DNA of 64,000 bases from a bacterium. Lineage in GTDB: Bacteria > UBP6 > UBA1177. Below the pieces are notes generated by a model that searched no databases, was not told the origin of the DNA, and saw nothing but the letters and a program-made list of their open reading frames with translations. The stretch covers positions 154,468 through 218,467 of the forward strand of contig JAEESW010000001.1 of assembly GCA_016290135.1 (NCBI GenBank). Direction: 5' to 3'. The position numbers were made by a program, and so were the translations under genes. How positions within the stretch are numbered: position 1 is the first letter of the stretch; every line of letters begins with the position of its first letter. Positions 14,801 through 47,712 of the stretch are shown one piece after another.

Positions 14801-17800
14801 GGAAAATACGAGAACTTACTACAGACCTGTTGTACCGGTCAGTCTGAAGGAAAAATCGATAGTTCTCACTCCAGGCACGCTCAATAACGGCGAAACAGCC
14901 CTTAAGACCCTGCTCGGAAGCGAGGATGTTGATTCTCTCGGCAACATCACAGGCAAAATGACGATTGTCGCTACTTCGAAAATCGCGAACAAAACCTATT
15001 CGACACAGAAAACCTACGATTTCTTTGTCAACGACGACAGCGCTGGCGTCAACTCGAAGCCTGTTCCTGCAAATATCCAGGTTTATCTCAACGATTCTAC
15101 AGGCCACGCGATCGCCGCAAACGCAAATCCGGCGATAATCCTGAATCCGGGCAACAAGGTTTACTATCCTGTTGACGGTGTCGTCAGCATCACCGATCTT
15201 GCACCTGCGGCTTACACTGTTGACGCATTTGCTGACGGCTACTATGCGAAAAATGTCAGTGTCAATGTTCCTGAAGGCGCTACGTTCAGCGTTGAGATCA
15301 GGCTTGACGAAGAGCTTACGAGCACTGCTGATGCAAACCTTGAACTTTCAGTAAAAATCGACACGGCAAAGCATCCGTCAAAGGTCTACATCCAGATCTA
15401 CAACGACGACATGGATCTCGTTGCGAACGAAACCGCGAAATTCGATACCGGTACGAACACTTACGAAACACTGAATATCGAGATTCCTTCGGGCAGATAC
15501 ACGCTTCTTGCGGTAGGCGAGGATATGTACAACTATCTTGAAGCGATAACGCTTTATCCGGGTGACAACGAAAAGGAAATCAAGGTCGTCGCAAAGAATG
15601 CATGCGGAAACGGCATAGTCGATTCTGCGGAAGAGTGCGAACCTTCTGTTGAAGGAACGGCTCTCACTGTTCTCTGCGGCACGATCTATCCTGCTTCGAC
15701 TTATCCTGAAAAAGAGGCGGCCTGCAACTCGGATACATGCACGTTCAACAAGAGTGAATGCGGCAAGGCGGCGCTTTGCGGAGACGGAATCCTTGACGAA
15801 GGCGAAGGCTGCGACGGCGGCTCAAAGGCATGTGCTGAAATAGCAGGTTTCGGCAATTCAAGAGGAACGGCACCGTGTAAAAACGACGACTGCTCTGGTT
15901 ATATCACGGCAGGATACTGCACAAGAACAACTGAAAGCTGCGGAACGCTTCCTGCAAACGCGCAGTGGAATGACGGCGAGGGTACATTTGCGCAGACTTA
16001 TGACGGAGCAGACTGGGCTCCTGCTGCAAAAGCGGCAAAATACGGTCTTACATTGGAAGAGTGCACCTATTCCTGCAAAAAAGGCTCGGTATGGGACAGC
16101 GCTTCCAGCAGCTGCGTACTCTATCCGCTTTCGCTCGCACTTGTCTGCACGGGGGCAAACGGCTGCTTCGATACAGAAAGCGATGCCGAATGTCCGGCTT
16201 ACGGAGAAGCTCTTTTCGGCCAGGACGCACAGTATGCGGCGACCGGTTTCTGCATGGAGCACACTCTTGCTAAGGAAGGAAGCGGCGAAAATGCCGTTGT
16301 CAGAGATGCTTACACTCACTACGAGTGGCAGGCTTCTGCAAGTGATGCAATGAGCTGGGACAGTGCAAACGAATACTGCTCGAGACTCAACGACAACGGC
16401 AGCGACCACACCGCGGCGCAGTGGAGAATCCCGAGCCCGGCTGAACTTCTCACGATTATAGATTCAGGAACGGCAAGTCCTGCTCTCGGCGATATTTTCA
16501 CGACTCCGGAATACAGTTTCTGGGCTGCAGAGGACGCAAAAAATGGAGACAACGCATGGAAAGCTGATGAAAACGGCGCGCTGACAAGCGTTTCGAAAGC
16601 TGAAAACGCAGGCGTTGTATGCATCAGATATCAGAGCAACTACACTCCGTCAGGCAGACGCTTCACCGATGAAAACGAGACTGTAAAAGACAGTGAAAGC
16701 GGCTTAATGTGGCAGAAGCAGCCTGTATCGTCAAGCACGTGGAAAGAGGCTCTTGAATACTGTTTCAATGTTTCGAGTGCCGATAAATTCGACTGGAGGC
16801 TTCCGAACAGAAACGAGCTTGCATCCCTTGTAAACTACGAAAAGACAAACGGCGCACTCAGTGACTTCCCGGCAATGGCGGCGAAAGGCTTCTGGACTTC
16901 GACATCCGATGTCTCCTCTGCTGCAAAGGCATGGACAGTCGATTTTGCAGACGGAAGCATAGCTTCTGCAGACAAAGCTGACACGAAATATGTCATCTGT
17001 GTAAGGAACGACGAGCCCTGCTTCGGAGACGAATGCCCCGACGCATGCGGCTTTAACCCGTGCAAAGAGATGCCGAATTCAACCGGACTCTGCACAGCAA
17101 ACGGATACGACTTTACCTGCGGCTGCAAGTCGGGCTTCAACTGGAACCACGCTAACTGCCTTCTTGACACGACAAGATATATCGCATGCGATGGTCTGCC
17201 CGAAAACGCAGTCTGGAACACCGTTTTCGGTATCAGCCAGAGCTACAACGGCGAAAACTGGTATCCGAGCAATGTCGGAACTTTCAACAAGATCCCGAGC
17301 ACGACGGAATGCCGCTTCGTCTGCGCAACAAACTACAAATGGGATGCGGACGAGGAAAAATGTCTTCCGGTTTCCAGAATGACTCAGTGCTCCGAAAAGA
17401 AACCTTACTCCGACTGGAACGTAGTTTCCAAGATCTCTCAGACATGGGACGGCGAGAAGTGGGAACCTTCGTCAGAATCGGAATACAACGAAGAGGCAAG
17501 TGAAGAAGAGTGCCGCTTCATCTGCAAGGAACACTACAACTGGGATGCGGAAAACAATCTCTGCGATCCTGAGAGACAGCCGGCTGCATGCATCGGACTT
17601 CCGGCAAACGCACACTGGTGGAACGAATCAGCGGCGATCACGCAGACCTGGACAAACGGCGGCTGGGCACCTTCGGCAACGGGATCTCACAGCACCGACG
17701 CGGAAGAGAACAAGTGCTACTTCACCTGTGACACCAACTATGAGTGGAACGACACATCCTGCGTTGCAAAGACTCAGACTGCAAGCTGTGTCACCACGAC

Positions 17801-20800
17801 CGACAATTCGGAGTGGACCGGCGGTTATTCAAGCATAACGCAGACCTGGAACGGCTCGGAGTGGTTCCCGAGTGAAGTAGGAACCTACAACACCGATAAA
17901 AATCCGGCTTACTGCCGCTTCAAATGCAAGGAAAACTATAACTGGAACGGTGCGAACTGCGAACCTGCGACACAGATCGCAACATGCACGGGACTTCCGG
18001 AACACGCGGCGTGGAACAAGGTCTCCAGCATAACGCAGACATTCACGAACGGAAGCTGGTCTCCGTCGAATGTCGGAACTTTCGGCAACGAAACGGCAAC
18101 CGAGTGCCACTTCAAGTGCAATGACAACTATAACTACGACAACGGAACAGGAAAATGTCTCGCAGGAACTCAGACTGCAACCTGCATCGGACTTCCTTCG
18201 AACGCTCAGTGGATCAATTCGACCGTAACGCAGAGCTGGAGCGACAGCCTCGGCTGGACACCGGCAGCTACCGGCCACCACAAGTCGGTATCAACTGACG
18301 GATGCAGTTTCGAGTGCGAAACCGATCATTACATCTGGGATTCCGGCACATCGACCTGCGTCGGTAAAACGATCACGAACCAGAACTGCACCGGAAAGCC
18401 GGGAAGCGCAGTCTGGAACACGGTTTCAAAGATTTCTCAGACATGGAGCGGCTCGGCTTGGCTTCCCGGTCTTGCGGCAACCTACAACGAGAATCCTGCA
18501 GCAGACGAATGCCGTTTCAAATGTCCGGCAAACTATGAGTGGAACGGTTCTGACTGCATAGCTAGGACCCAGATTGTAAGCTGCGGAACACTTCCTGCAA
18601 ATGCTGCATGGAACACCGTTTCGCAGATAAAGCAGACATGGAACGGCTCCAATGAAAAGTGGGAACCCGTTGTAAATCTTGTTCACAACGATGTTTCAAG
18701 CGAAACAGAATGCCGCTACACCTGCAAAGAGAACTATGAATGGAAAAATTCGGCATGTGTTGCAAAGAAGCAGACTGTTGCATGCACGGGACTTCCTGCA
18801 AACGCAGTCTGGAACAGTTCTACTGTCGTTCAGGAATGGAACGGCACGGCATGGACTCCCGAGACGACAGGAATCCACACGACCGGCAGCGCAACTGATA
18901 AATGCTACTTCAAGTGCATTGACGAAGGAACGAAATTCGACTGGGATACTACGACCAGCACATGTAAAGGTCACACCAAACCCAGTGGATGCGACAACGA
19001 ATCGCTTCCTGCGAACGCTTCGTGGTGGAACGCAAATATCAACCAGACATGGAACGGAACGGAGTGGCTTCCGACAACGACGGGCAGTTTCAGCAACAGT
19101 GCTGTCGATAACCAGTGCCGCTTCAAATGCAACAGCCACTACAATTGGAACGGTGCGACATGTGAAGCTGAAACAAGGATTTCACCTTGCGGAACACTTC
19201 CTTCAAATGCGCAGTGGAACACCGCTTCAAGCATAGAACAGCACTGGGATGAAAGCGTTTCCGGATTTGTTCCGACTCTCACTCCGCAGTACGGCACCGA
19301 GGCTACGACAGCTTACTGCTGCTACAAATGCCAAGAAAATTACAGATGGAACGGTTCAGAGTGCGTTGCTGCGACAAGACAAAGAGAGTGCGAAGGACTT
19401 CCTGCAAATGCAGTATGGAGAACGAGTTCTTCCGCAACAGGAACTTCATTCAGTATAACTCAGGAATGGAGCGGTGAGGAATGGCTTCCACTGCTTTCAG
19501 GAACTCACGGCTCGTATCTTGCCGGTCAGTGCCGCTTTACATGTATTGATGAAGGCAACAAATTCAAATGGGAAAACAATGCATGCGTTCCGAATACTAA
19601 AACAGACCAGGCATGTGAAGGACTTCCGGAAAATGCAGAATGGACCGGCGGATTTACAAAAATATCGCAGACTTGGAACAGCACTATCAACAGTTTCGAG
19701 CCGAGCACTGTCGGAACATACAGCACCGAAGCTGATTCAGCTTACTGCCGTTTCCAATGCAAGGAACACTATATCTGGAGTGCAGAGGAAGGTGATGAAG
19801 GCGACGACGGCGACTGCGTAGCCGAAACAAGAGTTGTCGACTGCGACGAAGATGCTCTTCCTGACAATGCGCTTTGGAACTATGCTCCCTACATCACACA
19901 GACTTGGGACGGTAATGACTGGACACCGGGACTTACACCTGAATACAGTATCACCGGAAGCGAAAACAAGTGCAGATATACCTGCGATGACGGTTATTAC
20001 TATTTAGACGGTCAGTGTGTAACGAATCCATGCAGTTCAAACCAGTGCCGTTCAACTATTACAACTTTTTCATCAGGTACTTGTAACACGCAACCGGATT
20101 CATTCCCGCTTTCTTACGCTTGTGTATGCAGCAACGGTTTCTACTGGCACGGCAAAACAGGCTGCAGATCCAATAAACCGACGAATTTCTGCACCGGAGC
20201 TTCCAGATGTTACGGATACGGATCCGAGATCGACTGTCCTTCTGAGGGAGAAGCTTTTTACGGTCAGGATGCTCAGTATGCAGAAAAGGGCTTCTGTGCA
20301 CCGAAGAGTTTCACTGTTGCGGGAACGACAGAACAGCCGGTAATAAATGACAAAAATACAGGGCTAGGATGGCAGAAATCGATAAGAACCGTGGCAGCTA
20401 CCTGGAGCGATGCCTACAATTATTGCAACAACCTGAATTACGGCGGTTATTCAGACTGGAGAATGCCTACCGTCAAAGAATTGGATACCATATTGGATCT
20501 CGGCAGACGCAACAGTGCCGATCCTAATTATTTTTCTAACACAACCTATTCTTATTGGTGGGTAAATAATAAAAATGAAACTGCTGACAAGTTATGGTAT
20601 GTATATCAAACTTCAATTAAATACTGGCCTACAAGTTATGCAACGAACACAAGTTATAAATATTATGTCCGCTGTGTCCGTGGAACGGAACTGACTGAAC
20701 CTACATCTGAATCTTTCAGCAGTGATACCACTGGAGTCGTTAAAGACACCGATACGGGGCTTTACTGGAGCACTCCCGGCGACAGCAGAGTCAACTGGAA

Positions 20801-22325
20801 AGACGCTTTTGAACAGTGTGAGAACTCTACAACCGGCGGATATACAGACTGGAGACTTCCCAACATCAACGAGCTTTCTTCACTGCTGAATTATAGTAAA
20901 ACATCCGGCAGAGAGTTTTCATATCTCCCTGGAATTTCGTCAGGAGTTGAATTCTGGTCTTCCACCAATACTTCAGCACTGATGGCTTTAACTGTAAATT
21001 TCTTAACAGGTGAAAGGAGAGTTCAAAACAAAGATAAAGGGAATACCATTTACTACTATATCTGCGTTCGTTCCGATCTGTGCGGGGAAGAGCAGTTCCT
21101 TTACGGTAAAAACTGTATTGCCAACAGATGTGTTTTGAATAAGCCGTGCGAAAGCGTCAGCCACTCTGACGGTTCATGTACTCCTTTGACGGCAAGCACC
21201 TATAGATGCGGTTGCGAAGAGGGGTATGTCTGGAACCCGGGTACTTCTTCATGTATAGAAGATTTGTGCGCAACAAACAATATCTGTAGTTCAATTGAAG
21301 GTTCAGACGGAACATGTACTCCGGTATCCTCAGGAATACTTGTCAAATGCGGTTGTGTCGAAGGCTACTTCTGGGACGGTTCAAGATGCAGACCTAAAAA
21401 CGTTTACGGCAATATCTGTACTTCACAGACAACTTGTTACAATGCTTCGGCTTCAATGACATGCCCGAGTTCGTCGAGTGCTGATTTCTACGGTCAGGAT
21501 GCGCAGTATAGACTATGCACCGCGAAAAGCTTTAACAGCAAAACTATTTCAGGAAATCAGGTCGTTGAAGATTTGAATACTGGACTTATGTGGCAGAAAA
21601 CTCTTCCAAGCACGACATCGGACGGCACAACAACATATACGTCATACACATTCAATCAGGCTGTTACCTACTGTGCAAATCTTAACTACGGCGGATATAC
21701 AGACTGGAGAGTGCCAAGACCGAAAGAAATGCTTTCCACCATTTACAGTAGTACTGTCAACCCTTCAACGAGCACGACCTATTTCCCCGGACCTTACGGA
21801 ACGGTGGATCCTGTTCCATACTATTGGACATCAAAGAAGAACCTTTCTTCAGGAAGTGCATGGGTAGTAAATATAAATTACGGAGAGTTTGGCAATTCAT
21901 TGAATTCAAGTAAGTTCTATGTCCGCTGTGTCCGAGGCGAACCTCTGCCTGATGCATCATCTTTCACAACAGAGACAGTAAATGGTGACAAGATTGTTAC
22001 AGATCATGTTACTGGACTCATCTGGCAGTATGGTCAAGTTTACGGCAAAGATTGGCAGTCGGCACTTAGATACTGTGAAGATCTGACTTATGCGGGATAT
22101 ACCGACTGGAGGCTGCCGAACAAGGATGAGCTGATATCCATTTTCAATTTTGATTCAGAAGGTCCTTATACGGATTTCCCGAATCGAACAATAGATAACT
22201 ACTGGTCATCAACCACTTATAGATACAGCGCAAACCAAGCTTGGAATGTAGATTTTTTCAATGGTCGATTGAACTACGGCAACACAAAAACAAATGCCAC
22301 GATATATGTCCGCTGCGTCCGTTAA
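11865..22325 (+). CDS. giant (3486 aa) mosaic surface lipoprotein with DUF1566 domains and Cys-rich repeats
   Basis: Lipobox FFMLSCGGG; Asp/Thr linker; AAGDPIM repeats; CGNGIVDSAEECE/CGDGILDEGEGCDGG (Myxococcus Cys-rich type); about 15 four-Cys repeats (C.GLPANA.WN...QTWNG..W.P...C.FKC..NY.WNG..C); six DUF1566-type segments (TGLMWQK...W..A..YC..L...G..DWRLPN..EL...YVRCVR). Confidence 0.93.
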   Translation: MKRVYAVLMFFAMFFMLSCGGGSDSKGKKQGELYGACYPNKTCNEGLVCDEENDVCLPGDDSDISDTAVTDGDTTEPEPADDTDTEKPEPADDDTDTDTSSDTTPDNDTDTDTSDTIPDQDTDTDTSDTAPDQDTDTGDTEPLEGTENRTISGSYQIGSEVSGIEAALYECGKTEKLASANTNAKGAFSFKADISSDKTYCVKANGFASCFKGLKDHTANISEITNAVFLLDQNCSDLRNSETKIRKYAKLGTGEWLGELDYSKLSGIKEGLKLLSNYLKTTNSKTLSEKIAEDSKKETPEFAKFFNGFRVSVDKNEIIIGETSDSNANFNVEGGSTKVAPGFKITWTLKNKTADAANYTFTTTVPGEYTARAKLAAGSDTLSNDSATVLFLQRKSGGTVYVSDTSKNISFRIDDGIYGVIPKGTVVKKNGTKINSISYDILSSGGNQVSRLKFKPEGAVFEGDTMYFVHELGTVFGGAPIMLSATRTNADGSIDVLNSAAGDPIMMAAAGDPIMTTAAGDPIMSAAAGDPIMTSAAGDPIMTSAAGDPIMSAAAGDPIMTSAAGDPIMANAAGDPIMMGTSSSAMISQTGHYSTFTVEAASLPVSLDMLVARWCDMGSFLHLTSPIELIVKAVDQNKPDGEEKTDLLSYLDCEHFADLGNDLYELVNRPVGFQRNLNLIENIFFATEFYGRLLLKQENAGSSAYVAVRNGLELRSAIASLYTATTSYNRSAGVSELFDSSMVPLTYSGVTPEDYTAQAKAAIIGNSGASDKYIATKKEMMIFANYITTSSKGPDFSGVTTILTPDQLVCAWFNPEIQASNCSKVYTLNETGHVTLGGTEVSVAEANAIFTKYFMPFNSRLGEEEKLNLFRTFYLALRYAGTMFYNGSDMTEFYNIMLHTIYLVFDGINRNANAVSIVDTFDASAHTVSVLDGNEMVTRPYLTKLSALTDKISLKVASESANVEKVLVSIEGYEFEKVQENTRTYYRPVVPVSLKEKSIVLTPGTLNNGETALKTLLGSEDVDSLGNITGKMTIVATSKIANKTYSTQKTYDFFVNDDSAGVNSKPVPANIQVYLNDSTGHAIAANANPAIILNPGNKVYYPVDGVVSITDLAPAAYTVDAFADGYYAKNVSVNVPEGATFSVEIRLDEELTSTADANLELSVKIDTAKHPSKVYIQIYNDDMDLVANETAKFDTGTNTYETLNIEIPSGRYTLLAVGEDMYNYLEAITLYPGDNEKEIKVVAKNACGNGIVDSAEECEPSVEGTALTVLCGTIYPASTYPEKEAACNSDTCTFNKSECGKAALCGDGILDEGEGCDGGSKACAEIAGFGNSRGTAPCKNDDCSGYITAGYCTRTTESCGTLPANAQWNDGEGTFAQTYDGADWAPAAKAAKYGLTLEECTYSCKKGSVWDSASSSCVLYPLSLALVCTGANGCFDTESDAECPAYGEALFGQDAQYAATGFCMEHTLAKEGSGENAVVRDAYTHYEWQASASDAMSWDSANEYCSRLNDNGSDHTAAQWRIPSPAELLTIIDSGTASPALGDIFTTPEYSFWAAEDAKNGDNAWKADENGALTSVSKAENAGVVCIRYQSNYTPSGRRFTDENETVKDSESGLMWQKQPVSSSTWKEALEYCFNVSSADKFDWRLPNRNELASLVNYEKTNGALSDFPAMAAKGFWTSTSDVSSAAKAWTVDFADGSIASADKADTKYVICVRNDEPCFGDECPDACGFNPCKEMPNSTGLCTANGYDFTCGCKSGFNWNHANCLLDTTRYIACDGLPENAVWNTVFGISQSYNGENWYPSNVGTFNKIPSTTECRFVCATNYKWDADEEKCLPVSRMTQCSEKKPYSDWNVVSKISQTWDGEKWEPSSESEYNEEASEEECRFICKEHYNWDAENNLCDPERQPAACIGLPANAHWWNESAAITQTWTNGGWAPSATGSHSTDAEENKCYFTCDTNYEWNDTSCVAKTQTASCVTTTDNSEWTGGYSSITQTWNGSEWFPSEVGTYNTDKNPAYCRFKCKENYNWNGANCEPATQIATCTGLPEHAAWNKVSSITQTFTNGSWSPSNVGTFGNETATECHFKCNDNYNYDNGTGKCLAGTQTATCIGLPSNAQWINSTVTQSWSDSLGWTPAATGHHKSVSTDGCSFECETDHYIWDSGTSTCVGKTITNQNCTGKPGSAVWNTVSKISQTWSGSAWLPGLAATYNENPAADECRFKCPANYEWNGSDCIARTQIVSCGTLPANAAWNTVSQIKQTWNGSNEKWEPVVNLVHNDVSSETECRYTCKENYEWKNSACVAKKQTVACTGLPANAVWNSSTVVQEWNGTAWTPETTGIHTTGSATDKCYFKCIDEGTKFDWDTTTSTCKGHTKPSGCDNESLPANASWWNANINQTWNGTEWLPTTTGSFSNSAVDNQCRFKCNSHYNWNGATCEAETRISPCGTLPSNAQWNTASSIEQHWDESVSGFVPTLTPQYGTEATTAYCCYKCQENYRWNGSECVAATRQRECEGLPANAVWRTSSSATGTSFSITQEWSGEEWLPLLSGTHGSYLAGQCRFTCIDEGNKFKWENNACVPNTKTDQACEGLPENAEWTGGFTKISQTWNSTINSFEPSTVGTYSTEADSAYCRFQCKEHYIWSAEEGDEGDDGDCVAETRVVDCDEDALPDNALWNYAPYITQTWDGNDWTPGLTPEYSITGSENKCRYTCDDGYYYLDGQCVTNPCSSNQCRSTITTFSSGTCNTQPDSFPLSYACVCSNGFYWHGKTGCRSNKPTNFCTGASRCYGYGSEIDCPSEGEAFYGQDAQYAEKGFCAPKSFTVAGTTEQPVINDKNTGLGWQKSIRTVAATWSDAYNYCNNLNYGGYSDWRMPTVKELDTILDLGRRNSADPNYFSNTTYSYWWVNNKNETADKLWYVYQTSIKYWPTSYATNTSYKYYVRCVRGTELTEPTSESFSSDTTGVVKDTDTGLYWSTPGDSRVNWKDAFEQCENSTTGGYTDWRLPNINELSSLLNYSKTSGREFSYLPGISSGVEFWSSTNTSALMALTVNFLTGERRVQNKDKGNTIYYYICVRSDLCGEEQFLYGKNCIANRCVLNKPCESVSHSDGSCTPLTASTYRCGCEEGYVWNPGTSSCIEDLCATNNICSSIEGSDGTCTPVSSGILVKCGCVEGYFWDGSRCRPKNVYGNICTSQTTCYNASASMTCPSSSSADFYGQDAQYRLCTAKSFNSKTISGNQVVEDLNTGLMWQKTLPSTTSDGTTTYTSYTFNQAVTYCANLNYGGYTDWRVPRPKEMLSTIYSSTVNPSTSTTYFPGPYGTVDPVPYYWTSKKNLSSGSAWVVNINYGEFGNSLNSSKFYVRCVRGEPLPDASSFTTETVNGDKIVTDHVTGLIWQYGQVYGKDWQSALRYCEDLTYAGYTDWRLPNKDELISIFNFDSEGPYTDFPNRTIDNYWSSTTYRYSANQAWNVDFFNGRLNYGNTKTNATIYVRCVR
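13362..13604 (+). repeat. 27-bp tandem repeat, nine copies of AAGDPIMxx
   Basis: Nine contiguous 9-residue units read directly from the translation. Confidence 0.97.
17175..20030 (+). repeat. 14 tandem four-Cys repeats (about 63-75 aa each) within the giant lipoprotein
   Basis: Repeated pattern C-x2-LPxNAxW...QTWxGxxWxP...C-x3-C-xxxYxW...C; a 15th related unit lies upstream at about 15938-16115. Confidence 0.92.
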
Positions 22326-36892: not shown

Positions 36893-39139
36893 ATGATCAA
36901 AGGGCTTGAAGTTCTTTTCCTGTTGTTGCTCTGTTTTCCCGTCCTTGCGGCGGAGGACCCCGGCACATCTGAAAATGCCGGCACTGTAAGCCGCGCAGAG
37001 GCTTCTCTCAGAGAGATCGATGCCGAATTCGAAAACAACTTGAAAAGATATCTTTCGCTTAATCTTTCCGACACTGACTACAAGCTGCCGCCTTCGGAAA
37101 AAATGAAGAAGGGCGAATTCTTCTTTGAAAAGGGCGATTATGCTACGGCCGCCGGTATTTTTTACTCGGTGACGGTGTCGGTTCCTGACAATGACGCCGT
37201 AAAGCCGGCAGCTCTCTACAGACTCAGCGAATCGCTGTTCATGCAGAAAAATTACGTTTCGGCGACGCGCTACTACGAGATGCTTGCGGTTTCCGACAGC
37301 GGAGAACTCAGGATAAAGGCGCTCAAAAGGCTGATATTCATCAGTTATTCTTTGGGGGAATACGCAGCGGCAGAAAAGTATTACGACCAGTTTGCAAGGG
37401 GCGGGAACGATATCGCTTCCGATCCGGAACTTCTTTATTACCTTGCAAAATCGCTTTTCTTCGGCGGGAAGCCGGATGAGGCGGCAAAGTTCTTCTCTTC
37501 GCTGACCAAAGATGACGCTTTCTATCCGCAGGCCCGTTATTTTCTCGGTGTCATGGCACTCCGCGACAAAAAACTCGAGGAGGCTCGCGCCTGCAACGAA
37601 GAGATCCTCGCGCTTCCGGACGACGGACGCTATCATAGTTTTGAAAATATCCGCGAACTGGCAGATCTTGCTGTGGCAAGGATAGCTTTCGAACTTGACG
37701 AGCAGGAGACCGCGTCGGCACACTACGCGCCTGTTTCGTTCGATTCCCGTTCTTTCCCGCAGGCTTACTACGAACTCAGCTGGACTTTCATCAAGCGTGA
37801 CCAGTTCGACGATGCGATAGAGACTCTGCGTTTGGTCCAGAATGCGGCTCCCTATTCGCAGATCGCGACCCGGGCCGAAGTCCTTGAGGGGACGCTCCTT
37901 GTCAAAATGGGGCGGTTCGGCGAGGCTCTGGTGCTTTTTGATTCGATAGTTACAAAATACAGCAAATATCAGGACGAACTTTTCTCGATCGACGGCAAGG
38001 CATTTCTTGCAAGCGGAAGGTCCGGAAAGCTCTCCGATTTCCTTCTTCCTTACTCTCCGGCGGTCAGATCGCTGCTCGAGGACAGCAGAAAATTTTCTGA
38101 AACAGTTGCTCTGAACGATACGATCCTTGAGCTGGAAGAAGAGTTGAGACGCATTGACGAGCTTGAAAAAAAGATGTCGGCGATCACAGGCAACAAGAAC
38201 GCGGCCGCTCTTTTCCCGCCTCTCAAAGCGGCAGTAAAAAGCGTGATGTCGCTCAGGAACAGAGTCGCTGTAATAAGAAATTCCCTTGTTATGTATAAAA
38301 ACGGCTCGCTCAGCGAGGGGCGCAGCGGTGAATTCGAGGAACTCGATTCCGAAAAGCGCGAACTTCTCGATATAACCGAAACTGCTTCCATTGCGCCTGA
38401 AAGGATCAGGGAACGCGCTGAGGAATACGGTGACAAAGTTGTGAAACTTGACGAGAAGATGCACATCGTCTCGATGGAGCTCGAAAATCTTTCGGGAAGA
38501 CTCGATGCTCTTATCGCTTCGTATTCGGAAGAGCGGAATGTCGCCAAGGAAAACGAAAAAGAGGTCCTCGACAGGATCGGTCAGGAGCGCGAAAGGTTCA
38601 ACGGGCTCACTGCTGAGAGCGAATCGTGCCAGACTGAGATCGATGACGAGAAAAACGCTCTTGTCTTCGGCGGGACTCTGATCGAAGCCGAAAATTCGAT
38701 AAGGGATTCGTTCAACGGCATAGTTGCGCGTCAGAACGGCATCCTCGGCAATCCTTCGGAGATAGCCGGAGCTCTCAGAGAAGCCGACAGGATCGATGCG
38801 AAACTCGCCGGTTTCATGGACAGGCTGAATGATGCGATGAAAGGCATCATTGCCAATGTCAGCACTTCGTACGAGCAGGAAAAACGCACTGTCGACGGAT
38901 ACAGAAGCGAACTTCTCAGAGCAAAGCGCGAAGTCGAGGAGATGGCAGTCCTGGCTCTTTATTCGAACATGAATACCGCCCGCAATATTTTTGCAGATCT
39001 TGTGCTTCAGGGCGATTTGGGGATCATAGATGTCGCGTGGGAAAAGAAGGAGGAGTCTTCTTCCGAGATCATGCGCCTCAAGACTCAGAAGGCCAAGGAA
39101 TTACAGCAACTCCACTTTAATTTAGACGGTGAACAATGA
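36893..39139 (+). CDS. TPR and coiled-coil protein, module copy 2
   Basis: Signal peptide, N-terminal TPRs aligning with the 26238 gene, long C-terminal coiled coil. Confidence 0.82.
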   Translation: MIKGLEVLFLLLLCFPVLAAEDPGTSENAGTVSRAEASLREIDAEFENNLKRYLSLNLSDTDYKLPPSEKMKKGEFFFEKGDYATAAGIFYSVTVSVPDNDAVKPAALYRLSESLFMQKNYVSATRYYEMLAVSDSGELRIKALKRLIFISYSLGEYAAAEKYYDQFARGGNDIASDPELLYYLAKSLFFGGKPDEAAKFFSSLTKDDAFYPQARYFLGVMALRDKKLEEARACNEEILALPDDGRYHSFENIRELADLAVARIAFELDEQETASAHYAPVSFDSRSFPQAYYELSWTFIKRDQFDDAIETLRLVQNAAPYSQIATRAEVLEGTLLVKMGRFGEALVLFDSIVTKYSKYQDELFSIDGKAFLASGRSGKLSDFLLPYSPAVRSLLEDSRKFSETVALNDTILELEEELRRIDELEKKMSAITGNKNAAALFPPLKAAVKSVMSLRNRVAVIRNSLVMYKNGSLSEGRSGEFEELDSEKRELLDITETASIAPERIRERAEEYGDKVVKLDEKMHIVSMELENLSGRLDALIASYSEERNVAKENEKEVLDRIGQERERFNGLTAESESCQTEIDDEKNALVFGGTLIEAENSIRDSFNGIVARQNGILGNPSEIAGALREADRIDAKLAGFMDRLNDAMKGIIANVSTSYEQEKRTVDGYRSELLRAKREVEEMAVLALYSNMNTARNIFADLVLQGDLGIIDVAWEKKEESSSEIMRLKTQKAKELQQLHFNLDGEQ

Positions 39140-42100
39140 GATATTTTCTGATTTTTCTAATTGTGTCGTTTGCGGCGCTGCCTGTTTTTGCGGATGAAAA
39201 GCCGGCTGAAGCGCAGAATGCCGAGGCGGAAAAGTCCGTTTCTTCTCCGGATGATGTGATCGTTGACAGCGATCTTTTCAACAGCGAGGCTTTTGCTAGA
39301 GAAGTCGTCCGTTTTGAAGGACGAGTCAAGGAATATCAAAAGGAATTCAACCAGCTTGTCCTCAGGGAAGTCGCGGAAAAGAGAAAATTCGTCGATTCCA
39401 AATACTCCAGCGCGATATCCGAGCAGGAACTCATGGAGATGAGGGCAAGACAGGACGCGATAATCCTTTTCGAAGAATTCGTCAGAAAGTATCCCGACAA
39501 TCCGAAATATACTCCGAACGCGATGTACAGGCTCGCCGAGCTTTACTACGAACGTTCGATGATCGTCTACAACGAAAAGACTGCCGGATACGAGGCTGAG
39601 ATCGAAAAATTCGACAGGGGCGAGATCACGGTCGAACCGGAACTTCCGGAGATCGATTTTTCCGATTCTATAAAACTCTACACCGACATGATACGCCGCT
39701 TCCCCGATTTTGAATACATCGGGTCGGTTTACTACCTTCTCGGTTACTGCTACTCCGAGTCCGGGCAGGGCGACAAGGCGGTTCAAGTCTGGCTCACGCT
39801 GCTTGAAAAGGGGCTCGCCGGCGAAAATTACGTTGAACTCAGACTCCGTCTGGGTGACTACTATTTTGCCGAGAACGATCTGAAAAAAGCCGAAGAACAG
39901 TATTTGGAAGGGAAAAAATTCCCGGACAGCAACTTTTACGACCAGATCCTCTACAAACTGGCGTGGACTTACTACAGGCAGATCCGCCTCGAGGATGCGG
40001 TCAAAACATTTACGCAGCTGCTTTTCTACTCCGATGAGATGAGGGCGCGCGGCATCGACAAGGGACAGAACCTCAGAAAGGAGGCTGTCCAGTATATCGC
40101 GATCAGCTTTGCTGACGACGAGTGGGGCAGTGCCGACAAGGCGATAGCATACTTCTCGACGATCAAGGCCGAGTCGTTTGAGATCGAAGTCTTCGAGCAG
40201 TTGGGTGCATATTTCGACGAGAACAACAAATACGCTGAAGCAGAAAAGGTCTACCGCTACATAATCGGGCGTTATCCTTATTACGAAAACACGCCGATAC
40301 TTCACAATGCTCTCATCCAGCTCTGCAACAAAGCCCGCGAATTCGACAAAGCTGCTGCTGAAACAGAGATCTTTGCGGCGAAATACAACTCTTCGAGCGA
40401 ATGGGCGCGTATCAACCGCGGAAATCCGGCTGCGGTCCGTGCAGCGGCGGAACTTGCCAAAATCGCGCTTCTCGATACTGCTGTTTTCCATCACAAACAG
40501 GCTCAGGCTCTGAAAGAAAACGGCGATGCTGACGGAGCTGTCGCGGAATACCGCAAGGCTGCGGACTTCTATGCGGCGTATCTCAAGGATTTCCCGTACA
40601 CTTCAGAGACATACGACATCACCTACAGCCTTGCCGACACGCTGTTCTATGCAGGCGACATCAAGGCTGCGGTCGTTGTCTACGAAAAAGTCAGGGACGA
40701 CAAGAATCAGGATAAATACAGAGACGATGCGGCATTCCAGGTCTTCTACTGCTATAACAGCATCTGGGAAGGTTCCGATGAAAGGAACATTCCGGCTGCA
40801 GAAAAGGCCGGCAAGCCGCTCAGCGAGCTTGAGCAGAAACTTGTCTTCTCGAGCGATATGTACCTGAAACTCGCGAAAGAAGTCGAGGACAAGCCCGTCG
40901 TTGCATACAACGTTGCGAGGATTTATTATGATCACGATCTCTACAGCGATGCAGAACCGCGCTATCTCCGCATTATCAGCGAATTCCCCGAAACACAGCC
41001 GGCTGTCCTGGCATCGAAAGACATAATCGCCTACTACACAGCCAAAAAGGATTGGGTGAATGTCGCGAAATGGTCGAAAGTTTTTGCGGAAAGGCTCGCA
41101 ACGAAGGCGAAGACCGACAAAAAAGCGAAGGAAGAATTTTCGACATACCGTGCAAGTGCTCTTTTCAAGCATGCCCAGCAGCTTGAAGAAGAAGGCAAGC
41201 ACGTCGAAGCTGCCGAGGAATATCTGAGGATGGTCGAGGAGAATCCGGGCAACAAAGACGCCGACAAGGCAATGTACAACGCGGCTGTCAACTATCAGCG
41301 TGCAACCATGTTCGAATCTGCGCTGCGTCTGCACGAAAGGATCTACACCGAATATCCGAATTCGGAACTTGCTCCGCAGTCGCTTTATCTTGTTGCGTAC
41401 AACGCCGAAATGAGCTACGACCACGAAAAGGCGGTCAATGCCTACAAGCAGTTGTACGACAAGTATCCGAACTACAAGGAAAAATCGAATGCAGTCTTCA
41501 ACGCGGCTTTCCTTTTGGAAAAACTCCAGAAATATAAAGATGCTGCGAGATACTACAGGCTTTACTACACTGAAGAAAAGTCCAAACCGGAAGGTAAAGA
41601 GGCTCTTTACGATGTCGGCAGGATGTATCAGAAGGCCGAGGACTGGAAAGATGCGATCAAAAATTACGAAAATTTCATTTCGACTTTCGAAAATGATCTT
41701 TCGGTAACGCACCTCGTCGCAAGGGCGCGCTACCAGATCGCGAAGATCTACGAGGAAAAGCTCAATAACCAGAAGATGGCGAAGGCTTCATACGAGAAGA
41801 TACTTTCCTACATCGCTGCGAAGAAGGTCACGACCGAGGAGTCGATGCTCTATGCGGCGGAGGCGAAGTTCAAACTTCTCGAAGACGAGTTCAACGCTTA
41901 TTTGAAGCTCAAGATCATCGGAAAGAACGACAAGCAGCTCGAGGAAAATCTCAAGAAAAAAGTAGCTGCGATGAAGGAACTTGAAGGAAAATACAACGAA
42001 GTCCTGAAATTCCAGGTCTACGAGTGGATGATGGCCGGGATGTACAGGATCGGTTTCCTTTACCAGAGTTTCTCCGACGCCTTGTTTGACGCTGAGCCGC

Positions 42101-42477
42101 CGGCAGGACTTACCGAGGAAGAAGAGGAGGTCTACACCGATATGCTCAAGCAGCAGGCTGAACCTATCGAGGAACAGGCTGTAACCTACTATTCGAAGGC
42201 TTTGGAAAAGGCTCGTGAACTCAAAGTTTTCAACAAATGGACGCAGCTCATAACCGAAAAGCTTGCGGTCATGCGTCCGGCTGAATACAAAGTCGGCAAA
42301 ACTCCGATGTTCGCCGAGGAAAACGATACCGATTCCGGTTTTGCACCGGTGATCTCGCTTGATAAGGCGGAAAAGAAGGCTTACAAGAAGGCAGGGATCG
42401 GCGGTGCCGCTGCTGAAGGATCTTCCGAACAGAAGAATGAAACGCCAAAAGAGGTGAAAGATGAAAAAGCTGAATAA
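39136..42477 (+). CDS. giant TPR protein, module copy 2
   Basis: Signal peptide (LIVSFAALPVFA); YRLAELYYERSM... and many TPRs, homologous in order and sequence to 27897-31529. Confidence 0.87.
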   Translation: MRYFLIFLIVSFAALPVFADEKPAEAQNAEAEKSVSSPDDVIVDSDLFNSEAFAREVVRFEGRVKEYQKEFNQLVLREVAEKRKFVDSKYSSAISEQELMEMRARQDAIILFEEFVRKYPDNPKYTPNAMYRLAELYYERSMIVYNEKTAGYEAEIEKFDRGEITVEPELPEIDFSDSIKLYTDMIRRFPDFEYIGSVYYLLGYCYSESGQGDKAVQVWLTLLEKGLAGENYVELRLRLGDYYFAENDLKKAEEQYLEGKKFPDSNFYDQILYKLAWTYYRQIRLEDAVKTFTQLLFYSDEMRARGIDKGQNLRKEAVQYIAISFADDEWGSADKAIAYFSTIKAESFEIEVFEQLGAYFDENNKYAEAEKVYRYIIGRYPYYENTPILHNALIQLCNKAREFDKAAAETEIFAAKYNSSSEWARINRGNPAAVRAAAELAKIALLDTAVFHHKQAQALKENGDADGAVAEYRKAADFYAAYLKDFPYTSETYDITYSLADTLFYAGDIKAAVVVYEKVRDDKNQDKYRDDAAFQVFYCYNSIWEGSDERNIPAAEKAGKPLSELEQKLVFSSDMYLKLAKEVEDKPVVAYNVARIYYDHDLYSDAEPRYLRIISEFPETQPAVLASKDIIAYYTAKKDWVNVAKWSKVFAERLATKAKTDKKAKEEFSTYRASALFKHAQQLEEEGKHVEAAEEYLRMVEENPGNKDADKAMYNAAVNYQRATMFESALRLHERIYTEYPNSELAPQSLYLVAYNAEMSYDHEKAVNAYKQLYDKYPNYKEKSNAVFNAAFLLEKLQKYKDAARYYRLYYTEEKSKPEGKEALYDVGRMYQKAEDWKDAIKNYENFISTFENDLSVTHLVARARYQIAKIYEEKLNNQKMAKASYEKILSYIAAKKVTTEESMLYAAEAKFKLLEDEFNAYLKLKIIGKNDKQLEENLKKKVAAMKELEGKYNEVLKFQVYEWMMAGMYRIGFLYQSFSDALFDAEPPAGLTEEEEEVYTDMLKQQAEPIEEQAVTYYSKALEKARELKVFNKWTQLITEKLAVMRPAEYKVGKTPMFAEENDTDSGFAPVISLDKAEKKAYKKAGIGGAAAEGSSEQKNETPKEVKDEKAE

Positions 42478-44047
42478 AATTTTCATATTGATTGCGCTCT
42501 TGTCTTTTGTTTCGTGCGGAACTGCATCCACAGCCTCTTCTTCTGATTCTGAAAAGCCGGAAGGAAGTTCTGGAACAGTCCGGAGCGAACAGTCGGCGAC
42601 CGTAGCCGGAAACGCTGAAAAACATCAGAAAACGGCGTCGGAAGGCACTGCCGGCACCGATGCGGCAACTGAAGCAAAACAGGAAAAGGATCCGAATTAC
42701 GAAGGCGGAAAATATGTCGGCCCTGCTGCCGCTGACTTCGAGGAAGGACTTCGCGCTTATTCCGCAGGCGGCTGCGACAAGGCTGTCAAGTTTTGGAAGT
42801 CGGCTTTTGACAAAGATCCGAAAAATGCGCAGGTTGCTTTCAACACGGCTGTCTGTCTGGAGCGTATGAAAAACGCCGGTGAGGCTGCTGCGTGGTACGA
42901 AAAGGCCTATCTTGCCGATAACAGTTTCACGAAACCGCTCTACAATCTGGCTCTGCTCTACATGCCGGCTCAGATCAAGGAAAAAGAAGGTTATCTCATG
43001 CAGCTTGCCGAAAAGAACGCGGACGTTGTTGAAAAATACAACTTCATCGCGTGGCTCAATCTTCAGCTGGGCCGCTCGGAAGAGGCTGAAAAGTATGCAA
43101 AGATGGTCCTGAAAGAGGACGAACAGAACTCAGAGGCTGTGATTTCTCTTGCGACTTCATATTTCAACAAAAAGATGTACGAACTTGCTGAATCGGCGCT
43201 CGAGACGGCTGAAAAATGGGATCCCGACAATTTCAGACTCCAGAGACTTTACGGTTTCCTGCTTTACAGAACAGGCGATTCAAAAGGAGCTACGACTCAT
43301 CTTATGAAATCTGTCAAGGCAAATCCAGACCAGCCTGAAGTAAGGAACATACTTGCCGTTCTCGCGATGAAGATCGAGGATTATTCCACGGCGAAGGAAC
43401 AGCTCGAGGCCGCTTTGAAGATCAGAGACGACTTCTGGTCGGCAAAACTGAATCTTGCTCTGGCTTACAAAGGGCTCGAAGATTACAAGAACGCTGCGGT
43501 CGTTATCGATGAACTCGAGGCGAGAAACGATCTCCAGGAACCGCTCCGCAACAGCGTGATCTTCAACAAAGCTCTGCTTCACCTCGATGCGGATGTCGCA
43601 GGTGACAAGAATCCTGCGCGTTTCGATACAGCGGTCAAATATTTCAATGAATATCTCAAGCTGATCGCGAAAAGCAAAAACTTCAAGGAGCAGAAGGCGC
43701 TTGTCGACGGCTATATAAAAGAAGCAAACACCGAAAAGAAGAAACTTGAGTTCGCTCTTGCCGCAAAAGCGAAGGCTGAAAAGAGAAAACAGGCTCAGGA
43801 AGCAGAGGCAAAGTTGTTCCAGCAGAACAAGGAGGCGGCTTTCAAAAAGGCTGAAGAGGCAAACACTGCGGAGGCTTGGAGCAAGTATCTGGAGGAATAT
43901 CCGGTCGTTGACGCAAACGACACTCTCAGTCTTTCGGCAAAAGCCAAACTCGAGGCGCTGAAACCTCAGGCGGCTGAAACCGCACCTGAGCAGAAACAGG
44001 AAGGTGAAAACACTGAAGCTCAAGGAAAAGAAGAGGGCAAACAGTAA
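42461..44047 (+). CDS. TPR lipoprotein, module copy 2
   Basis: Lipobox LLSFVSCGTA; TPRs (GGCDKAVKFWKSAFDKDPKNAQVAFNTAVCLERM); start overlaps the upstream gene. Confidence 0.87.
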   Translation: MKKLNKIFILIALLSFVSCGTASTASSSDSEKPEGSSGTVRSEQSATVAGNAEKHQKTASEGTAGTDAATEAKQEKDPNYEGGKYVGPAAADFEEGLRAYSAGGCDKAVKFWKSAFDKDPKNAQVAFNTAVCLERMKNAGEAAAWYEKAYLADNSFTKPLYNLALLYMPAQIKEKEGYLMQLAEKNADVVEKYNFIAWLNLQLGRSEEAEKYAKMVLKEDEQNSEAVISLATSYFNKKMYELAESALETAEKWDPDNFRLQRLYGFLLYRTGDSKGATTHLMKSVKANPDQPEVRNILAVLAMKIEDYSTAKEQLEAALKIRDDFWSAKLNLALAYKGLEDYKNAAVVIDELEARNDLQEPLRNSVIFNKALLHLDADVAGDKNPARFDTAVKYFNEYLKLIAKSKNFKEQKALVDGYIKEANTEKKKLEFALAAKAKAEKRKQAQEAEAKLFQQNKEAAFKKAEEANTAEAWSKYLEEYPVVDANDTLSLSAKAKLEALKPQAAETAPEQKQEGENTEAQGKEEGKQ

Positions 44048-44116
44048 AGATCATGTTTGAAAAGGCTAATGTAATAGCAAGGTTGCAAGTTTTTTACAGG
44101 GCTTTTGCCAAAAAAA

Positions 44117-44145
44117 TTGCTTTAAAAAAATTGTTTGTATATATT
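44117..44145 (+). promoter_or_regulatory. sigma-70-like promoter upstream of the small gene and exbB-exbD-exbD
   Basis: TTGCTT (44117-44122), 17-nt spacer, TATATT (44140-44145). Confidence 0.55.
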
Positions 44146-44178
44146 CCGCGCAACTTTGTTCTTGTAAAGGGTAATTTT

Positions 44179-44400
44179 GTGATGCTTTTTATTTGCGCGC
44201 TTATCGCTTCGTTGCTTTTTTCCTTTAATGTCGAAGCGAAGACCATAGTTATAGAAGAAATTCAGATCGAAGGAACCATACAGAAACCTGAAGTTATGAC
44301 GTTTTTGTCAAGGGCGAAGTTCTCGTACCGTTCACTGGATCTGGATGTAAGTTTTTTGGAAGAGGTGGAGAAAGCCGTCTGTGTAGACGATGCTTTCTAG
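44179..44400 (+). CDS. small secreted protein, EGxIxKP family, copy 2
   Basis: Start GTG 44179 or ATG 44182 (AAAGGG upstream); IEEIQIEGTIQKPEVMTFLSRAKFSYRSLDLDVSFLEEVEKAV. The longer ORF from 44053 would cross the predicted promoter. Confidence 0.7.
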   Translation: MMLFICALIASLLFSFNVEAKTIVIEEIQIEGTIQKPEVMTFLSRAKFSYRSLDLDVSFLEEVEKAVCVDDAF

Positions 44401-44433: not shown

Positions 44434-45072
44434 ATGGAATGGTTTGCTGAGTTTTATCGTTCAGGCGGAACGTTTATGCACTTCATCGCTATTTGCGGTC
44501 TTTACGTTCTCGGTGTTGCAATTTACAAATGCATTTTTCTTCTTGTAAAGTTCAACACAAACGGCGCAAATTTGATGAAACAGATCCAGAAGCTTGTTAT
44601 GGCAAACAATGTTGACAAAGCTATCAAACTTTGCGACGCAGCAGGCGATGCAGCTCTTGCAAAAGTTATGAAGGCTGGTCTTTCCAGAGCAAACAGAGGC
44701 GAACTTGAAATTCAGAACGCAATGGAAGAGGCAACTCTCGAAGTAACCCCGAAAGTTTCGAAACTCCTTCCCAGCATTTTCGCAATTTCGAGTACGGCTA
44801 CCATGTTCGGACTTCTTGGAACGATTTTCGGACTTATCGATGCATTCGAAGCAGTTGCTCACGCTGCTCCTGAGCAGAAATCGGCAATGCTTGCAAACGG
44901 TATCGCTATCGCTATGAACACCACCGGTTGGGGTCTTATGATCGCTATTCCCGGAACGATTGTTCACCTTGTTCTTAACGGTCTTGCAGGAAAAATACTC
45001 AACGACCTTGATCTTTACTCTGTAAAACTTTCCAACTTGCTTGTTAGCAGAGAAAAAGGAACGGCTGAGTAG
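44434..45072 (+). CDS. MotA/TolQ/ExbB family proton channel protein
   Basis: LPSIFAISSTATMFGLLGTIFGLIDAFEAVA...IAIAMNTTGWGLMIAIPGTIVHLVL; aggaggatttactatg. Confidence 0.93.
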   Translation: MEWFAEFYRSGGTFMHFIAICGLYVLGVAIYKCIFLLVKFNTNGANLMKQIQKLVMANNVDKAIKLCDAAGDAALAKVMKAGLSRANRGELEIQNAMEEATLEVTPKVSKLLPSIFAISSTATMFGLLGTIFGLIDAFEAVAHAAPEQKSAMLANGIAIAMNTTGWGLMIAIPGTIVHLVLNGLAGKILNDLDLYSVKLSNLLVSREKGTAE

Positions 45073-45101: not shown

Positions 45102-45650
45102 ATGGGTAAGAGACGTTCACAAGGATCCGGTCAGGATCTCGACATGACGGCTGCAATGAACCTCATTCTTATTCTTATACCGTTGTTGTTGACCTCAATG
45201 GAGTCTGTAAAAATAGCCGTTGTCAACGTTGCTACACCGCAGATCGGTCCTTCTTCCGAGGCAAATCCGCCGGCAGACAGACCGGATGATAAACCTCTTA
45301 AACTGACAGTTGCTCTGACCGACAGAGGCATCACTGTTTTTGTAAGAGATCAGGTTATTGAAAACAAAGACGATCCGTTGGGTCCGACAATCCTTAAAAT
45401 TGACGGACAAGAAGAAGATGCGGAAGGCAAAATGATTGATGCTAAAGTTTATGATATTGATAAGCTTGTTGAGATCATTTCGGATTTGAAAGATGCGAAT
45501 CCGGCTGAAGAAAACATTATCATCACCGCTGAACCGAATACTAAGTACAAATACATTATGAAAATAATGGACGCTACCCGCGAGAAAAAGGACGGCGAAA
45601 AGAAGAAAACTCTTTTCCCGAACGTTGTACTTAGCGCAGGTATAGCATAA
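45102..45650 (+). CDS. ExbD/TolR family protein 1 (TM Asp replaced by Asn)
   Basis: Position in operon, N-terminal TM DMTAAMNLILILIPLLLTSM and periplasmic domain. Confidence 0.85.
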   Translation: MGKRRSQGSGQDLDMTAAMNLILILIPLLLTSMESVKIAVVNVATPQIGPSSEANPPADRPDDKPLKLTVALTDRGITVFVRDQVIENKDDPLGPTILKIDGQEEDAEGKMIDAKVYDIDKLVEIISDLKDANPAEENIIITAEPNTKYKYIMKIMDATREKKDGEKKKTLFPNVVLSAGIA

Positions 45651-45660
45651 GGAGGGTGTT

Positions 45661-46236
45661 ATGGCAGAAGAAAACAAAACTTATGAATACCTTCCGGAAA
45701 ATTATGAAGAAGAAATCCTGAAGAGCAGGAAAAAATCTAAAGCTGGCAGAGAAAGCGCAGGCGGACAGAAGTTAAACATCAACTCGTTGATGGATATTCT
45801 TACGATCATGCTCGTTTTCCTTCTCAAGAGTTATGCTACAGATCCTGTAAACATTACTCCCGGACCAGACTTGGATATTCCGAAGTCGACTTCATTATTG
45901 CAGCCTGCAGCGACTGTTACAGTTACAGTTGCTAAGTCTTCAATAGTTGTTGACAACGAACCTGTTACGGTCGTAAAAGACGGTAAGGTCGAAGCTTCGC
46001 AGAAACGCGGCGGCGAAGACGCTTATTTCATCATTCCGTTGAACAAAGCGCTCGTCGAGGCAGTTGAAAAGAAAAGACGTCTCGAAGCTATCAACCCGAC
46101 CATCAAATTTGACGGTATTTGTACAATCGTTATGGACAAGGAAAGTCCGTATCGTTTGTTGACGGAAGTTATGTATACTGCAGGTCAGGCGGAATTCTCG
46201 AACTTTAAGTTCGCGACTATTTCAACTGCCGGCTAG
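45661..46236 (+). CDS. ExbD/TolR family protein 2
   Basis: NINSLMDILTIMLVFLLKSYATDPVNI (canonical TM Asp), periplasmic domain. Confidence 0.88.
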   Translation: MAEENKTYEYLPENYEEEILKSRKKSKAGRESAGGQKLNINSLMDILTIMLVFLLKSYATDPVNITPGPDLDIPKSTSLLQPAATVTVTVAKSSIVVDNEPVTVVKDGKVEASQKRGGEDAYFIIPLNKALVEAVEKKRRLEAINPTIKFDGICTIVMDKESPYRLLTEVMYTAGQAEFSNFKFATISTAG

Positions 46237-46311: not shown

Positions 46312-47712
46312 ATGCCCCAGGGGATATCAGACAAGGTCTTAAGAGTCGGCGTTATTCAAAACGGACGGATTCTTGACGAACAGGTATTCAGAAAAGCTGA
46401 AACAGTTTTTATAGGTGATTCGGAAAAAGCTCATTTTACAGTGCCCTCATCCTTCTTGTCAGGCAAATTTCCGATGTTTTATTTCAGGTCTGGGCATTAT
46501 GAGCTTGTTCTTACCGGAAAAATGACCGGAAAGATCTTTTTTAAGGGCGAGCCGAGAGAAGTTGAAGACTTAATCAAAAGCGGTACTTTAAAAAGACGCG
46601 GTGATGATTATGTGCTTCCTATTTCAGAGGATCACCGCGGTAAAATTCTTATCGGAAATGCAATAGTACTGTTTCAATTTGTAGTTCCTTCGCCGAAACC
46701 TCCGAAATTGAGGCTTCCGAAGTCGATCAGAGGCTCTTGGACTCAGCATTTCGATTGGCCTTTTGTTTCGATAGAGTTGGTCGTCATGGTTTTCGGCTAC
46801 TTCTTTTTTGCAATTTATCTTATGAATGTTCCGAAGCCTGAACCGGTGGAACTCACCGATGTTCCGAACCGTTTTGCAAAACTTATCGCTCCGGAACTCG
46901 AAGCTAAGGATGAGGTCATCGAGGAAAAAGAGATCGAGGATAAGACTCCGAAAGAAGAAAAGGAAGTCGATCCAAATGCTACGGCAACTTCGACAAAAGC
47001 TGTTAAAAAGGTCGCTGAAAAACAGGAAGAGGCTGCTCCCAAGAGAAATGAAAAGCCGAGAGATGCTTCTACTATTCAGCATGAAGAGTCAGTCCGTGTG
47101 GCTGAAATGCAGAAGAAAGTCGCAGGAAAAGGTCTTTTGAAGATGATCGGTTCGGTCGGTGAAGGCGGGACCGGCGGATTCATCTCCGATGTTCTCGGTG
47201 ACGGCGGTAAAGACCGTGATATAGATTCTGCTCTTTCCGGTGTAAAACAGATCGGTGTTGCAACGAGTTCTTCGCAGCGCAGCAGAAAAGGCGATGCCGG
47301 TGCTGTCGAGACTGCAAAGATAGACGATCTTAAAGTTGAGAAATCAGAAGGTGCTGTCGCTGTAAAAGGCAGAGCGGAAAAGGCTGTAGTCGGCAAAGCT
47401 TCCGTCGGTAAGACAGAAGTCGACGGCGCCGTTGATTCAGCAAGTGTAGCCAAGACCATCAAAGGCAGCAGCGCCGCTGTAAAGCGTTGCTACGACAAGG
47501 CTCTCCTTGCTAATCCCACTTTGAAAGGAAAAGTATCGGTTACTATTTTAATAAATGAGAAAGGACGTGTCGAGAGTATTGATATTGCGGAAGATACACT
47601 TAAAGATGCGGAAACGATCAAGTGTATAAAAGGTGTTATCAGCAGGTTGCGTTTCCCGAAACCTGAAGGCGGTCCGGCAAGCGTTACTTTCCCGTTCATG
47701 TTCAGCAATTAA
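46312..47712 (+). CDS. FHA-like / TM / AgmX-PglI C-terminal domain protein, copy 2
   Basis: FHA-like N-terminus, TM (IELVVMVFGYFFFAIYLM), DVPNRFAKLIAP, C-terminal KGSSAAVKRCYDKALLANPTLKGKVSVTILINEKGRVESIDI...CIKGVISRLRFPKPEGGPASVTFPFMF. Confidence 0.87.
   Translation: MPQGISDKVLRVGVIQNGRILDEQVFRKAETVFIGDSEKAHFTVPSSFLSGKFPMFYFRSGHYELVLTGKMTGKIFFKGEPREVEDLIKSGTLKRRGDDYVLPISEDHRGKILIGNAIVLFQFVVPSPKPPKLRLPKSIRGSWTQHFDWPFVSIELVVMVFGYFFFAIYLMNVPKPEPVELTDVPNRFAKLIAPELEAKDEVIEEKEIEDKTPKEEKEVDPNATATSTKAVKKVAEKQEEAAPKRNEKPRDASTIQHEESVRVAEMQKKVAGKGLLKMIGSVGEGGTGGFISDVLGDGGKDRDIDSALSGVKQIGVATSSSQRSRKGDAGAVETAKIDDLKVEKSEGAVAVKGRAEKAVVGKASVGKTEVDGAVDSASVAKTIKGSSAAVKRCYDKALLANPTLKGKVSVTILINEKGRVESIDIAEDTLKDAETIKCIKGVISRLRFPKPEGGPASVTFPFMFSN

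Follow-up and report, generated by a model that had tools for sequence, protein, structure and literature searches.

The aspartate on the transmembrane (TM) helix of ExbD and TolR proteins is needed for use of the proton motive force, and it has been called an absolute requirement in ExbD, TolR and MotB. The Asp25 residues of ExbBD adjoin a ring of Thr148 and Thr181 (PMC6778125), and rotary models have two Asps alternating in 36-degree steps (PMC12215075, PMC12905483). In MotB structures, the D22N substitution stands in for a protonated Asp (PMC9389320). The AglR-AglQ-AglS stator of Myxococcus xanthus pairs two different ExbD proteins, AglQ (162 aa) and AglS (194 aa) (PMC3169522); whether these form homo- or heterodimers has been stated to be unknown (PMC9389320). 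An AglQ D28N mutation, with AglS intact, abolishes proton conduction, gliding and sporulation in M. xanthus (PMC3858216). In the PVC group, clusters with a tolQ-like gene, two different tolR-like genes, a TPR gene and a vWA transducer have been modelled as one complex, in an account whose accessible part makes no mention of an Asp-to-Asn change (PMC12204202).

The window analysed here, a stretch of 64,000 nucleotides, holds a related module in which one ExbB gene is followed by two different ExbD genes, an AglRQS-like order that is also found in its relatives. The module and its neighbours are as follows.

39136..42477, + strand: large TPR protein, 1113 aa, GltD-like by size and position (Pfam TPRs; GltD assignment from synteny only)
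42461..44047, + strand: TPR lipoprotein, GltE-like (NCBIfam gliding_GltE 69.6 bits over 60-450, below the cut-off of 225)
44053..44400, + strand: small secreted protein with the motif IxIEGxIQKPE, likely start ATG 44182, just 5' of exbB
44434..45072, + strand: exbB, ExbB/TolQ/AglR-like pentamer subunit, 212 aa (Pfam MotA_ExbB 77 bits; PDB matches TolQ/ExbB)
45102..45650, + strand: exbD1 (AglQ position), Asn-bearing ExbD/TolR-like protein, 182 aa (Pfam ExbD 36.1 bits)
45661..46236, + strand: exbD2 (AglS position), Asp-bearing ExbD/TolR-like protein, 191 aa (Pfam ExbD 38.0 bits)
46312..47712, + strand: GltG-like TonB-type force transducer (NCBIfam gliding_GltG 150 bits over 23-465; the cut-off of 650 is not reached)

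ExbD1 and ExbD2 both exceed the Pfam ExbD (PF02472) gathering cut-off of 25.4 bits, and ExbB lies over that of MotA_ExbB. Besides the ExbB-ExbD-ExbD order, the module shares homologous subunits with AglR-AglQ-AglS and has putative GltE/GltG-like partners, and the GltG-like protein ends in an AgmX/PglI domain (myxo_SS_tail 89.3 bits, cut-off 40). This transducer differs from that of the PVC cluster, which is a vWA protein (PMC12204202). Directly after the Glt-like genes come two proteins without a family and then polysaccharide export and Wzc-like genes; the segment 49855-53385 encodes Wza-like export, Wzc-like chain-length/kinase and RlpA-like (DPBB and SPOR) proteins. By analogy with the Nfs/Exo system of Myxococcus sporulation, these neighbours suggest a motor that could act on surface polysaccharide. 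Upstream in the window, 11865-22325 is occupied by one ORF of 3486 aa. The small secreted protein had no Pfam or NCBIfam match. Proteins with the motif I-x-I-x-G-x-I-x-K-P precede exbB in many modules, whether ExbD1 carries Asn or Asp (L018, L024, L027, L033, L082, L087, L107, L116, L141, L269 and others), and this protein appears to be a machine component not described before.

The two ExbD proteins differ at the carrier position, where the Asp of the ExbD/TolR helix is absent from ExbD1 and present in ExbD2.

45159..45161, + strand: ExbD1 Asn20, codon AAC, proton-carrier position; ExbD1 reads DLDMTAAMNLILILIPLLL
45793..45795, + strand: ExbD2 Asp45, codon GAT, retained proton carrier; ExbD2 reads NINSLMDILTIMLVFLL

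The sequence-only reading of this DNA had already set the Asn of ExbD1 against Asp45 of ExbD2, and its codons and ORFs are borne out; alignment with E. coli ExbD and TolR agrees, placing Asn20 opposite ExbD Asp25 and TolR Asp23. The claim also stands after a search of the alignment for a substitute acidic TM residue: among 148 ExbD1 proteins with Asn or Gly at the carrier position (hereafter the Asn/Gly class), none has an acidic residue at helix positions +1 to +13, and 57 of the 148 have Glu at +14, the outer end of the helix. Asp14 of the window protein (-6) was considered as a replacement carrier and rejected, as relatives usually have Asn there. Two more ExbD genes in the same genome both encode the ordinary Asp.

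Structure predictions are supportive, if not strongly so, of each protein having one N-terminal TM helix and an ExbD/TolR-type periplasmic domain. The AF2 model of ExbD1 (pLDDT 84) has a single helix at 15-44 that holds Asn20, and that of ExbD2 reaches pLDDT 82. Foldseek matched ExbD1 to ExbD periplasmic domains and ExbD2 to ExbD and TolR; E-values were about 0.001-0.04, a range in which unrelated folds score similarly, and ExbD/TolR were the sole membrane-stator matches. A PDB sequence search returned no AglQ/AglS-type structure.

ExbD1 occupies the AglQ position and naturally has the residue that kills AglQ. In the myxobacterial system, by contrast, both ExbDs carry Asp, and AglR has Glu and Cys at the sites of Ile and Thr in the window ExbB. 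The comparison extends to sampled loci: a putative myxobacterial locus (L171) encodes an ExbD1 of 162 aa with Asp28 and an ExbD2 of 194 aa with Asp41, and because these lengths and Asp28 match published AglQ/AglS, we read it as an AglRQS-like set. Every AglQ/AglS-like subunit read in L171-L174 has Asp, unlike the Asn/Asp pair of the window, and a second set in the L171 genome, M2-like by position (L143), likewise has Asp in both.

How far the Asn extends was assessed with a profile search of 384 genomes across Bacteria and six more searches focused on other lineages. These gave 205 non-redundant ExbB-ExbD1-ExbD2 modules, of which 146 have Asn in ExbD1 and Asp in ExbD2, 54 have Asp in both and three have Gly and Asp, proportions that are not a census because the search profiles were built mostly from Asn ExbD1 proteins. 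The remaining two have Asn in ExbD1 and an unreadable ExbD2 site. Neither Asn/Asn nor Asp/Asn combinations occur among the 205 two-ExbD modules; the ExbD2 Asp is kept in all 203 readable modules and is invariant in a 31-row alignment. Asn/Gly modules span 62 families and 113 genera, and Asp modules 17 families and 32 genera, the Asp counts taking in a small number of ExbB-ExbD loci that are fused or canonical. Asp is also present in every one of the 13 single-ExbD loci encountered. A natural one-sided Asp-to-Asn replacement, much wider than first noted, is thus strongly supported by the sequences. Paired tolR-like genes were already known; for the natural Asn class we found no description in a literature search that lay mostly outside subscription journals, which is not proof of novelty.

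The pattern bears directly on whether exbD1 is degenerate or an artefact, be it a sequencing error, a pseudogene or a drifting paralogue. One observation in that direction comes from a same-genus relative (G003), in which exbD1 is interrupted mid-gene (L026/L034) with exbB and exbD2 intact, through either a pseudogene or an assembly error. Yet all order-level orthologues covering the site (65-100% identity) have Asn, encoded by AAC in 18 and AAT in one, in open frames; ExbD1 proteins of related loci are 91-97% identical to that of the window. Beyond the order, an ExbD1-profile match was found in 80 of 82 genomes of one phylum, many with two copies, and in 39 of 41 of another; among well-assembled genomes with such a match (49/49 and 24/24 in the two phyla), all that were read have Asn. 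The sequences indicate that Asn has been retained far more than expected by chance. Sequencing error or sporadic change, which the sequence-only reading had left as a caveat, is ruled out by this conservation, and with Asn/Gly modules in 62 families, degeneracy of any kind is highly improbable.

Several modules depart from the common arrangement. In L131, L133 and L134, Gly takes the place of the carrier residue in ExbD1, and the Pro and the ExbB Thr match the Asn class (see below). A tandem pair of ExbB genes precedes one Asn-ExbD1/ExbD2 pair in L117 (3667-5058, - strand), and in L180/L167 (G384) three Asp-bearing ExbD genes come after a single ExbB gene. In L322, L328 and L331-L333, ORFs some 377 aa long match the ExbD as well as the ExbB profile and lie beside separate ExbB and ExbD genes; these are apparently ExbB-ExbD fusions. 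Partnerless Asn-ExbD1 proteins were considered and rejected, as the three apparent orphans checked (L031, L123 and L139; genomes G059, G034 and G129) each proved to share a genome with an Asp-bearing ExbD2. One genome (G482) carries both an Asn-class and an Asp-class module (L224 and L228), which argues for two working designs. A plasmid search for named carriers of the module gave no match.

Three positions, one in each of the three proteins, track the Asn (ExbB Thr163, ExbD1 Pro27 and ExbD2 Ser42), and most Asn modules also lack Glu at a further ExbB site, that of E. coli Glu176.

44908..44910, + strand: ExbB Ile159, at the site of E. coli ExbB Glu176; Glu in 1/151 Asn/Gly-class versus 41/54 Asp-class modules
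44920..44922, + strand: ExbB Thr163, adjoining Thr164 (E. coli ExbB Thr181); Thr in 151/151 Asn/Gly-class versus 2/54 Asp-class
45180..45182, + strand: ExbD1 Pro27 (Asn+7); Pro in 150/151 Asn/Gly-class versus 0/54 Asp-class
45784..45786, + strand: ExbD2 Ser42 (Asp-3); Ser in 142/148 Asn/Gly-class versus 4/52 Asp-class

The module resembles TolQR/ExbBD in its Pfam families, TM helix, periplasmic fold and essential Thr ring (window ExbB Thr130/Thr164 correspond to Thr148/Thr181), and differs from them in that those stators have a single ExbD gene, a homodimer with Asp on both helices and ExbB Glu176. At the Glu176 site, the difference between classes has a Fisher value of 1.7e-30, which ignores kinship. 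At the Thr163 site, nearly all Asp-class ExbB proteins have Asn or Cys, and after removal of near-copies and non-module loci the ExbB Thr163 state agrees with ExbD1 Asn/Gly in 78 of 78 representatives. The same pair, ExbB Thr163 and ExbD1 Asn20, is the top inter-protein coupling in a crude mean-field DCA (Neff 93 for 521 positions), with ExbB Thr163-ExbD1 Pro27 and ExbD1 Asn20-ExbD2 Ser42 ranking lower. Pairs between ExbD1 and ExbD2 were mildly enriched, 1.2-1.5 fold over expectation, and pairs between ExbB and the ExbDs depleted, in an alignment with too few sequences for contact calls. On an ExbB tree built with the covarying columns masked, the Asn/Asp state changed at least five times among two-ExbD rows, giving five independent contrasts on the best tree and just one on well-supported branches; with so few supported switches, the Asn/Thr association is consistent but not proven independent of phylogeny. 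The rows nearest the single-ExbD outgroup are Asn, on weak branches.

These residues could also be read as a changed ion preference, with Asn, the extra Thr and Ser forming a site for sodium or another cation. All three can act as oxygen ligands, Thr is gained and the equivalent of the ExbB glutamate is missing in most Asn modules, and sodium stators such as PomAB are known. However, the sodium-driven PomB retains its Asp (PMC12905483), and the Asn-class families are so diverse that they give no pointer to a special ion habitat. We regard altered ion use as one of the less likely explanations, and a rather doubtful one.

A second possibility is that the two ExbDs form separate homodimers, an ExbD2 pair making a working two-Asp stator and an ExbD1 pair either making a non-conducting ExbB5:ExbD1-2 complex or having a regulatory or wall-anchoring role. 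ExbBD, TolQR and MotAB as a rule use homodimers, the published uncertainty over the AglQ/AglS dimer leaves room for them here (PMC9389320), and a few extra Asn-ExbD1 copies lie without an adjoining ExbD2 (L309-L312). On the other hand, ExbB Thr163, ExbD1 Asn20 and Pro27, and ExbD2 Ser42 change together, as if one pore were common to all three proteins, and strict retention of Asn, with Gly as the sole other neutral residue seen, is not what one would expect of a non-conducting subunit. Two homodimer populations therefore seem unlikely to us, if worth keeping in view.

We favour, and think probable, a proton-driven Agl/Glt-type stator of composition ExbB5:ExbD1:ExbD2 in which only one axle helix is protonatable. 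The sequence-only reading had proposed such a heteromeric stator; the natural Asp-to-Asn change in one of the paired ExbDs and the strict retention of Asp in its partner are upheld at the sequence level, and a mixed axle is consistent with how strictly the genes pair, with their fixed order and with the covariation in ExbB and ExbD2. In the stator we favour, the ExbB pentamer would enclose an axle of one ExbD1 and one ExbD2 helix. Asp45 of ExbD2 would take up and release protons, and Asn20 of ExbD1 would be a permanent substitute for the protonated, neutral Asp, the same chemical change as in MotB D22N/D32N, which are laboratory mutants of a homodimer as opposed to a natural one-sided state. 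Asn20 may be held by a widened ExbB Thr ring (Thr163 beside Thr164) and by a helix altered by Pro27. With a single carrier on the mixed axle, one proton would move each time the Asp passes a pentamer subunit, and geometry would then give five protons per turn in 72-degree steps, as compared with ten in 36-degree steps for two alternating Asps. The GltG-like transducer, together with the Glt-like TPR proteins, would carry the output.

Against this mechanism, current rotary models have two alternating Asps (PMC12215075, PMC12905483), and the dead AglQ D28N motor with intact AglS (PMC3858216) indicates that one Asp is insufficient in an Asp-class background. Given how widespread the Asn class is and that D28N paralyses AglQ, a large natural class bears what is a dead-motor mutation in Myxococcus. 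Tentatively, and with slightly more doubt than belief, we suggest that the commonest Agl/Glt-type stator in our sample is an obligate single-carrier ExbB5:ExbD1:ExbD2 complex, that alternation of two Asps is no general need of 5:2 stators, and that the studied Myxococcus motor is a minority two-Asp form.

Of the two paired axle proteins in this envelope motor of the Myxococcus gliding type, one thus has Asn in place of a supposedly essential Asp. As this one-sided design is conserved in dozens of families, such motors may use one proton carrier and not two. Together with its matching ExbB changes, the one-sided Asp class offers a natural way to ask if a second carrier is required; it also bears on whether the AglQ/AglS-type axle is mixed, the point stated as unknown (PMC9389320), and on whether the gearing of protons per turn can change.
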